Source of the DNA: Candidatus Nomurabacteria bacterium
GTDB taxonomy: Bacteria > Patescibacteriota > Minisyncoccia > Phycocordibacterales > UBA9973
NCBI GenBank assembly: GCA_016186435.1
Contig: JACPLQ010000003.1
Coordinates: 1-41,846 of the forward strand
Direction of reading: 5' to 3'
DNA: 41,846 nucleotides
The notes below the pieces were generated by a model, which worked only from the letters and a program-made list of their open reading frames with translations, was not told the DNA's origin and did not search any database. Below are positions 12,851 through 29,186 of the stretch, piece after piece. How positions within the stretch are numbered: the first letter of the stretch is position 1; each line of letters starts with the position of its first letter. Made by a program: the position numbers and the translations under genes.

Positions 12851-12859
12851 TTCTTTGCT

Positions 12860-20098: not shown

Positions 20099-20137
20099 AG
20101 ACTTATTATATATCTTTCTTTGGTTGAAACCAATTTC

Positions 20138-20170
20138 AGCATTTGCTTACGATCGTTTCTAAATGCTAAA
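20138..20170. repeat. Dyad/direct repeat A-up, upstream of orphan Cas2-like gene A
   Basis: AGCATTT-N16-AAATGCT dyad; ACGATCGTTTCTAAATGCTAAA (20149..20170) matches 19/22 with 20757..20778. Confidence 0.75.
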
Positions 20171-20175
20171 ATGTA

Positions 20176-20742
20176 ATGATGGCTTACCTTAAAAGAAGGG
20201 TCGGTGAAACTCAAAGAAAAATCCTTTTGCTTTTGCTTGCCGGTTTAGCTCTTGGTTTAACAAGGTCTCCTAAAAAACATTGGTGGATTTTAAAACAAAT
20301 TCCCAAGGAATGGGATAAAGTAAACCGCCAAACACTAGAAAGAGCAGTAAACTCTTTATATAAGTCACACTTGGTAGAAGAAAAAAATAACAAGAATGGC
20401 ACCACTACTTTAGTTTTGAGCGAAAATGGCAAGCGACGAGCACTGCAGTTTAATATTAATAAAATAGAGATTAAAAAACCAAAAACCTGGGACAAAAAAT
20501 GGCGAATAATTATGTTTGATATTCCGGAGAAATTTAGGGGCTTGCGGAATTCATTGCGTTTCCATTTTCAAGAAGTAGGTCTCGTTGAACTTCAAAAATC
20601 GGTATTTGTCTTTCCTTACCCTTGCCATAATGAGATAGAATTTATTACAGAACTCTACAACGCTAGAAAATATGTGCGTTTTGTTGTGGCGGAGAAAGTT
20701 GATAACGGATTGCACTTGATGAAAAAATTCGATTTGTGCTAA
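20176..20742 (+). CDS. PaaX-like / winged-helix + Cas2-like domain protein (orphan, no CRISPR nearby)
   Basis: N-terminal wHTH-like region (WWILKQIPKEWDKVNRQTLERAVNSLYKSHLVEE) and Cas2-like RIIMFDIPEKFRGLRNSLRFHFQEVGLVELQKSVFVFPYP. ATG at 20179 also possible. Confidence 0.8.
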   Translation: MMAYLKRRVGETQRKILLLLLAGLALGLTRSPKKHWWILKQIPKEWDKVNRQTLERAVNSLYKSHLVEEKNNKNGTTTLVLSENGKRRALQFNINKIEIKKPKTWDKKWRIIMFDIPEKFRGLRNSLRFHFQEVGLVELQKSVFVFPYPCHNEIEFITELYNARKYVRFVVAEKVDNGLHLMKKFDLC

Positions 20743-20756
20743 TTTAGTATTAGTGG

Positions 20757-20778
20757 ACGACCGTTTCTTATTGCTAAA
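20757..20778. repeat. Direct repeat A-down, 15 bp past the stop codon of gene A
   Basis: ACGACCGTTTCTTATTGCTAAA; 19/22 identical to 20149..20170, same orientation. Confidence 0.75.
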
Positions 20779-28083: not shown

Positions 28084-28461
28084 TTATAATCCGATTTCCT
28101 TCAAAACGAATTCTTTCTCTTGAAAGTGAGCTTTTTTTACACTGCCAGGGCTATAGTTTGCATAAATTCTGCCGTACTTTTTAATGAAACTTTGAATTTC
28201 CTCGTGGGTCATTTTTATTATATCGTCAATTTTCCCCTCCACCCATTCATCGCCGTCTTTAATTATAGAAATTTTATGTCCATTTATTTCTCCAGTAAGT
28301 CTACTGTCAACAAACTCTAAATAACCTTCTACTCCGAATCTTTCTTTCATCATTCTAGATACCTTTTCACGCAAATCTGATATATTCTTTTGTATACTAG
28401 TCATGTTATCTTCACCTTTTTTAATTTCTTCAGTACTAGGTTTGTAATTTTCCATTGACAT
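28084..28461 (-). CDS. Hypothetical protein
   Basis: Open frame of 125 aa with TATAAT upstream; no family recognised. Confidence 0.55.
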   Translation of the reverse strand: MSMENYKPSTEEIKKGEDNMTSIQKNISDLREKVSRMMKERFGVEGYLEFVDSRLTGEINGHKISIIKDGDEWVEGKIDDIIKMTHEEIQSFIKKYGRIYANYSPGSVKKAHFQEKEFVLKEIGL

Positions 28462-28576
28462 AGTTTTATTAAATTATATTTTATAATGCCTTAATATTAC
28501 CCCCCCCCCGAGCCAGTTCGTCAATAGAAACTATTAATGCTAAAAATAGCTTATTTTACATAGCTACAATACCAAA

Positions 28577-28611
28577 ACCTACTCAATCTCTGCGATAGTA
28601 GTATTTGAGTA
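28577..28611. repeat. Dyad repeat B-1, beyond the stop codon of orphan Cas2-like gene B
   Basis: ACCTACTCAATCTCTGCGATAGTAGTATTTGAGTA; 27/35 ungapped identity with 29151..29185; arms TACTCAA/TTGAGTA. Confidence 0.8.
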
Positions 28612-28633
28612 TATTCTAGAGCAATTGGAGAAT

Positions 28634-29128
28634 TTAGTTTAAACTAAACAAGATAGGCTTGTAAGACTTTGCTAATTTCATCACCTTTATGTTTTTCTTT
28701 AAATGTATCTGTTTGATATAAGAAACAAATTCTGGTGATAGGGGCGAGGGACCCACCCAAACACTTCGATGAATCATTGCGTACCCAAACTTGCGCAGGT
28801 GAAACCTGAGCCATTCCCTCTCGGCTCTTTTATGTTCTGGTATGTCATACATAATGATAAGATCTTTCGGCGCGTCTTTTGCAAAACAGGAGGAAAATTG
28901 TTTTAATGAATCCATTTTTTTGTCGATGTATTTTCTGCCTGCATGTGATAATTTTAATCGATCAAATTCTGTTAGAACGTATCCCTGTTTTTTAAGTCGG
29001 GACACGGTATTGTAAAATGACTGTTTTTTGTAGCTGCCAACTGGCAAGCCCAGCAAGTTCACCGACATACCTTTATACCTAGCCACCGGCTGTGAAAGAA
29101 TTTCTAGAATTTTATCTCCTAAACTCAT
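28634..29128 (-). CDS. Winged-helix + Cas2-like (PaaX-like) protein (orphan)
   Basis: wHTH-like FYNTVSRLKKQGYV and Cas2-like DLIIMYDIPEHKRAEREWLRFHLRKFGYAMIHRSVWVGPSPLSPEF. Confidence 0.8.
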   Translation of the reverse strand: MSLGDKILEILSQPVARYKGMSVNLLGLPVGSYKKQSFYNTVSRLKKQGYVLTEFDRLKLSHAGRKYIDKKMDSLKQFSSCFAKDAPKDLIIMYDIPEHKRAEREWLRFHLRKFGYAMIHRSVWVGPSPLSPEFVSYIKQIHLKKNIKVMKLAKSYKPILFSLN

Positions 29129-29150
29129 GTTTTATATCATACCACAAACA

Positions 29151-29186
29151 ACCTACTCAAGTCTAGCGATAGCGGAATTTGAGTAG
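29151..29186. repeat. Dyad repeat B-2, over the promoter region of orphan Cas2-like gene B
   Basis: ACCTACTCAAGTCTAGCGATAGCGGAATTTGAGTAG; perfect 8-bp arms CTACTCAA/TTGAGTAG around an 18-nt spacer. Confidence 0.8.

Follow-up and report, generated by a model that had tools for sequence, protein, structure and literature searches.

The window, that is, the whole stretch of 41,846 nt that was analysed, contains two genes of the same family, A and B, each with its own pair of flanking dyads (Table 1). The two dyads of gene B are identical at 27 of 35 positions in register, and their coordinates, sequences and identity are exactly as written in the preliminary description. Extended to 39 nt, the pair matches at 30 positions, more than any of 3,000 simulated flank pairs (Markov, equal-sized flanks, best 39-nt pair), for which the maximum was 27 of 39 and the mode 20; it is the strongest direct repeat in its region. 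The TATGAT box that had been reported is likewise present. Since the promoter-side dyad begins 9 nt upstream of this box, it covers the -35 position, as had also been stated.

Locus A and its dyad pair could be confirmed in the same way. The flanking repeats of A are 75 % identical, and the arms of these dyads recur in the orthologs L039 and L051. A shared centre had been proposed for the dyads of A and B; this does not hold, as the core of A (ACGATCGT/ACGACCGT) belongs to a different core class, while the strictly conserved core of B stands in the refined form GCNATNGC.

The neighbours of gene B are pgk and other housekeeping genes. There is no cas1 and no CRISPR array, and the locus holds two dyad copies. 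Just past the downstream dyad is a 125-aa ORF (28084-28461) without a convincing family, adjoined by a run of ten C (28503-28512). An ortholog of B is also found behind pgk in genome G037 (C4:51077-52864), where the pgk is only 38 % identical to that of the window, as if it had been replaced in place ahead of the B ortholog. In genome G043, the slot behind pgk that gene B occupies here holds a different, short-class gene of the family (L168) with a CTACGCCATGGCGTAG dyad.

Table 1. Coordinates of loci A and B and of an empty junction in the window
Feature	Position	Strand	Description
Gene B	28634..29128	-	164-aa ORF; winged helix (~1-75) and PaaX_M/Cas2-like ferredoxin domain (~88-152)
Upstream (promoter-side) dyad of B	29151..29185	-	Arms CTACTCAA/TTGAGTAG, core GCGATAGC/GCTATCGC; probable operator for autorepression
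Downstream dyad of B	28577..28611	-	3' of stop codon; proposed roadblock/insulator site
TATGAT -10 box of gene B	29136..29141	-	TGGTATGAT, extended -10; consensus match, from sequence only
Gene A	20176..20742	+	Second member, 188 aa; PaaX_M E 1.5e-19
Upstream dyad of A	20135..20170	+	AGCATTT...ACGATCGT...AAATGCT
Downstream dyad of A	20743..20778	+	Directly after gene A stop codon
9-nt spacer, empty here	12851..12859	.	Same gene junction in G052 carries a whole dyad-gene-dyad unit (C13:20240-20713)

Protein family and fold of gene B

Gene B passes the profile for the central, Cas2-like domain of PaaX (PaaX_M, PF20803; E 1.5e-13, 51.1 bits against a gathering score of 24). It is below the cut-offs of the Cas2 profiles TIGR01573 (24.1 against 24.5 bits) and PF09827 (19.7 against 23.8 bits) and fails the PaaX equivalog TIGR02277 (16.7 against 264.55 bits). 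The protein stops after the Cas2-like domain, at 164 aa, and has no C-terminal phenylacetyl-CoA-binding domain. A Pfam scan of gene B found no HUH/Y1 transposase (PF01797), DDE or recombinase domain. Named relatives of the protein come from Candidatus Nomurabacteria, Campbellbacteria and Zambryskibacteria. The residues D95, R104, R108 and W124 are invariant in 63 relatives; a conserved Asp at the position of D95 is general to the Cas2-like fold.

An AlphaFold model of B, built from the 63 relatives, has a pLDDT of 84.3. The solved structure nearest to it is E. coli PaaX (8a39; probability 0.97, but E 0.011 and TM 0.34), and Cas2 proteins come next; the probabilities of these matches are 0.97-1.0, the E-values only 0.01-0.06, and all Foldseek E-values for the model are above 0.001. 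A sequence-profile search of solved structures with B found nothing at E 0.01, PaaX and Cas2 being reached by fold comparison only. Gene B is best explained as a member of a large patescibacterial family of PaaX-like DNA-binding proteins.

Short members of this family (120-133 aa) are without the central winged-helix segment. Short members such as L004:1336-1725 pass the NCBI cas2 cut-off (TIGR01573, 31.8 against 24.5 bits), so that orphan Cas2 genes annotated in Patescibacteria probably belong to this PaaX_M family in many cases.

Paired dyads and their covariation with the protein

Seven PaaX_M genes are present in the window genome (G000, 706 kb), six of which have their own dyad pair. The seventh, which adjoins dnaK, has no dyads of its own, and another family's dyad is located behind its stop codon. 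In a related Candidatus Nomurabacteria genome (G052), 18 of the 19 PaaX_M genes are bracketed, the exception again being the dnaK-linked gene. Across the genus, 59 of 60 genomes contain PaaX_M genes, with 1 to 19 in each. Of 80 B-class loci, 57 have the core GCNATNGC on both flanks; counted singly, the upstream flank has it in 62 loci and the downstream flank in 65, against a background of 6.75 % for random 120-nt windows. A lack of paired dyads at other paralogs had been put forward as grounds for rejecting a self-contained module of gene and sites; these counts show the pairs at six of seven, 18 of 19, and 57 of 80 genes, respectively. For the first 76 loci, the best upstream and downstream matches are 25-34 of 34 nt in about half, against mostly 18-22 for mismatched upstream and downstream control pairs. 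In other families of Patescibacteria, 15 out of 25 loci are paired, with 27-34 of 34 positions matching and a control maximum of 23.

The four arm copies of a locus resemble one another (similarity 0.82) far more than those of other loci (0.36). With the Cas2-like half held constant, arm similarity follows that of the winged helix (partial r 0.45, reached by none of 2,000 permutations), a signal due mostly to pairs whose winged helices are over 55 % identical, the arms being nearly unrelated below 50 % identity. The partial correlation of the arms with the Cas2-like half is -0.09. For the core it is the Cas2-like half that correlates (partial r 0.47, against 0.15 for the winged helix). The dyads of long members pair in 89-97 % at positions ±13 to ±17 and in only 44-51 % at ±8 to ±10, whereas in the dyads of short members the symmetry fades beyond about ±13 and the outer arms are lost. 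Given that the core covaries with the Cas2-like half, and that the outer arms are gone where the protein has no winged helix, it is probable that DNA is read by the Cas2-like part, as it is in PaaX.

It is very likely, judging from these comparisons, that the protein binds the dyad. As a probable dimer it would occupy a private site of about 35 bp, with the winged helices contacting the outer arms and the Cas2-like domains contacting the core, and this predicted division of the site is well supported. The suggestion that protein and cognate site co-vary is thus borne out, with arms that follow the winged helix and dyads that go with the gene, and the idea of a self-contained module gains support. 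Dyads conserved independently of the gene had been named as a second ground for rejecting the module, and the comparisons of arms and protein speak against this. Cleavage, excision or recombination at the sites, which had also been hinted at, is not supported, as the orientation of the core between the two copies is random (16 same, 18 opposite) and no within-genome pair exceeds 75 % protein identity in the 11 genomes sampled. The same random orientation led to the rejection of site-specific recombination with a polar core. DNA looping between the paired dyads was also rejected, based on the absence of helical phasing in 57 centre-to-centre distances (R 0.05-0.17).

Orphan dyads, for which there is no cognate gene in the genome, exist and count against the explanation preferred here. 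In the window genome, dyads with arms GTGAGTAA and core GCATATGC are located at C14:4839 and C27:1251, and the cognate gene (of the G052 C17:15970 type) is absent from that genome. Other repeated intergenic motifs are TTACGTAAT, in spaced copies, and CTTTAGTT...AGTAAAG (C14:12644 and C8:18643 of the window genome, and the pyrE-pyrF spacers L254, L264, and L265); both are probably the sites of a different regulator family.

Sites at promoters and at gene ends

In most B-class genes the centre of the upstream dyad is 34-38 nt before the start codon, with the mode at -35/-36, and promoter-side dyads cover the -35 position or have an extended -10 within them, for example TGCTATAAT. This coverage of the promoter suggests autorepression, in which protein on the promoter-side dyad would block RNA polymerase and so repress its own gene. 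Repression of its own gene by the bracketed protein is likely, based on the position of the site. In E. coli, PaaX hinders RNA polymerase at its own promoter, which is thereby repressed, and its operator is TGATTC(N27)GAATCA (PMC9493321), a layout like that of the dyads described here.

In 65 B-class loci, the median distance from the stop codon to the centre of the downstream dyad is 24 nt. Further dyads outside the bracketing pairs, termed solo sites, were sought with weight matrices made from the two flanking copies in about 96 % of the window genome and 613 kb of G052. This identified 33 intergenic solo sites in the two genomes, scoring above anything in shuffled genomes, with about one to four copies per family. 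Compared with random intergenic positions, they are concentrated at gene ends and not at promoters: in 70 % the centre is no more than 25 nt away from a stop codon (10 % expected; binomial p 6e-16), 48 % are between convergent genes (17 % expected; p 3e-5), and 3 % are between divergent genes (24 % expected; p 0.002). Where convergent gene ends lack a dyad, 23 of 92 have a hairpin with a U-tract; where they have a dyad, one of 30 does (p 0.008). These figures come from few sites and a crude terminator finder with spacer length uncontrolled. Species differ in what occupies the slot behind the dnaK-linked PaaX gene, which can be an ordinary hairpin or a dyad, and the dyad family varies as well. 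Rho (PF07497) was not found in any of 40 genomes of the genus, nor the TRCF domain of Mfd (PF03461) in any of 21, with the controls positive in 9-10 of 14 reference genomes.

The placement at gene ends, the exclusion of hairpins, the exchanges in the dnaK slot and the lack of Rho point to a role at transcript ends, where the dyads would most simply be roadblocks. Protein bound to the downstream dyad, and to the one to four further dyads behind other genes, would form a roadblock on the DNA and stop readthrough or colliding transcription. In E. coli, polymerases that stall at roadblocks are released by Mfd (PMC10310618); with Mfd absent, a roadblock might stall polymerase rather than terminate transcription. 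Roadblocking at gene ends is proposed tentatively from the placement of the sites, with doubt slightly outweighing confidence. Taken as a whole, the best explanation combines private-dyad binding by a PaaX-like protein, autorepression, and gene-end roadblocks, and this combination may equally prove right or wrong.

Alternatively, the family could be one of ordinary PaaX-like autoregulators whose regulon is small, with downstream and solo dyads that control promoters of neighbouring or antisense transcripts and not termination. Some solo sites are in spacers of about 45 nt with a start codon 10-28 nt further on (pyrF, map, and zinc-ribbon genes), and could therefore equally be operators. Dyads of the L006 family occupy the pyrE-pyrF spacer in G000, G052, and G037 and, in G000 and G052, the spacer that separates map from a zinc-ribbon gene, at the spacing of an autoregulatory site. 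As they are also directly behind a stop codon, they fit operator and roadblock alike. The pyrF dyad is found in three of the five genomes with the L006 gene and also, slightly decayed in G046 and as a half in G001, in two genomes without it; it is missing in most relatives, in which the spacer is a few nucleotides. The map dyad is found in two of the five genomes with the gene and in none of the other genomes examined. Conservation of a solo site at the same gene junction is seen in the L006 family only, and among close relatives only. Support for hidden promoters can be drawn from E. coli, in which a CRP site located where two genes converge regulates a small gene that is hidden (PMC4892627). 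However, the divergent, promoter-only spacers hold just one of the 33 solo sites, nearly half are in convergent spacers, which are not expected to have an annotated promoter, and a promoter role leaves the bracketing downstream dyads unexplained. Such ordinary regulation, without a role in termination, is rather unlikely. The best reading, on the sequence evidence, is that the bracketed PaaX_M genes are probably self-repressing PaaX-like autoregulators and that what is unusual is the bracketing and the sites at gene ends.

In G052, tandem cysteine-rich zinc-ribbon proteins of about 570 aa are encoded at C3:9470-14806 and C3:48527-51921, with dyads of two families before each copy.

Mobility, comparison with known systems, and implications

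The number of PaaX_M genes ranges from 0 to 19 per genome of about 600 kb, and this raises the question of a transferable cassette or an element similar to REP/RAYT, in which the protein moves or copies the dyad-gene-dyad unit and the solo sites are non-autonomous copies or remnants. Of 16 junctions that can be resolved between the window genome and G052, 12 carry the whole unit in only one of the two genomes and four share it in synteny. The empty spacers are as short as 9-20 nt, including one in the window (Table 1); the two species are too distant for this comparison to define the exact ends of the unit. In non-syntenic relatives (72-80 % identity), homology is mostly confined between the outer edges of the two dyads, although this is also expected if the dyads are the last functional sequence. 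In RAYTs and REPs, likewise, a gene is located between two palindromes, further palindromes are intergenic, and the palindromes diversify with the gene (PMC2817692).

Several observations are nevertheless against active movement. Gene neighbourhoods are mostly conserved between orthologs (in 94 % of the pairs with at least 80 % identity and in 68 % of those with 70-80 %), the near-identical within-genome copies expected of a mobile element are not seen above the 75 % identity already given, and the core orientation of paired dyads is random. No target duplication was recognised, the Pfam scan of gene B contains no HUH, DDE or recombinase domain, there are no relatives in viral contigs, and the pyrE-pyrF site is kept at the same junction in several species. 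Unlike RAYTs, the family has no IS200/IS605 transposase domain; there are 1-4 solo copies where REPs usually number more than 100, and the palindromes are split dyads of the protein-binding type, in any relative orientation. Movement by the protein itself is improbable, and loss of whole units with occasional transfer would explain the pattern of presence and absence as well as active movement. Two related candidates were rejected: a phage origin, as relatives of the family are absent from viral contigs, and remnants similar to solo LTRs, as the arms at the one clear junction (C9:22069 of the window genome against G052 C17:22817) are from different families.

It is very improbable that the dyads act as RNA, as hairpin terminators or as processing sites for a ribonuclease similar to Cas2 or VapD. 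Relatives of Cas2 include ribonucleases (PDB 3exc and 3ui3 are among the fold matches), and the inner TCTGCNNNNGCAGA could fold into a small hairpin. However, the inner positions ±8 to ±10 pair far less often than the outer arms, which indicates a split protein-binding site without a continuous stem, and an RNA stem was rejected on this basis. In addition, GCGATAGC and GCTATCGC are interchangeable between copies, being equivalent in duplex DNA and not in RNA, and the dyads have no U-tract.

A relict CRISPR adaptation module, with an orphan Cas2 and repeat-like sequences, can be discounted almost entirely, since the Cas2 profile matches that favour it are sub-threshold or marginal, PaaX_M is matched far more strongly, a winged helix is fused to the domain, and the housekeeping neighbours accompany two dyads and no repeat array. 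Gene B does share with Cas2 (TIGR01573, PF09827) the ferredoxin-like domain and its conserved Asp motif (D95), and its best fold matches include Cas2 structures; it differs in the fused winged helix, the lack of a CRISPR locus, and the predicted reading of DNA sequence.

The closest known system is PaaX (TIGR02277; PDB 8a39 and 3l09), the nearest solved fold, in which a winged helix is likewise followed by a Cas2-like domain, and which has a long palindromic operator with well-separated arms and a site at its own promoter (for the B class, the latter is predicted from sequence). Gene B differs from PaaX in its size (164 aa against about 300), in the missing C-terminal effector domain, and in having no paa genes nearby; B-type sites bracket the gene and are also at other gene ends, and there are many orthogonal paralogs per genome. 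For the proposed roadblocks there is a parallel in LacI, PurR, CcpA, and Reb1, since elongating polymerase can be halted by a repressor that sits on the DNA downstream of the promoter (PMC10310618). The sites described here would differ from those roadblocks in being systematically behind stop codons, in the many dedicated proteins, and in the apparent lack of Rho or Mfd. A search of open PMC full text, with subscription journals and preprints outside its scope, found no paper with both PaaX and Cas2 and none with 'orphan Cas2'.

A broader proposal, which is doubtful, is that Patescibacteria without Rho and Mfd use many orthogonal bracketed proteins similar to PaaX and Cas2 as dedicated terminators or insulators, in self-regulating units that are gained and lost as cassettes. 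If the explanation preferred here is true, it would provide a function for a class of genes very common in Patescibacteria, the apparent orphan Cas2 genes, with the Cas2 fold used as a sequence-specific reader of DNA, and a natural series of protein and site pairs in which the recognition of arm and core is separable. It would also bear on how transcripts end in bacteria that have neither Rho nor Mfd. Even without a role as terminators, regulators found across the phylum with their own sites on either side of the gene would be unusual.
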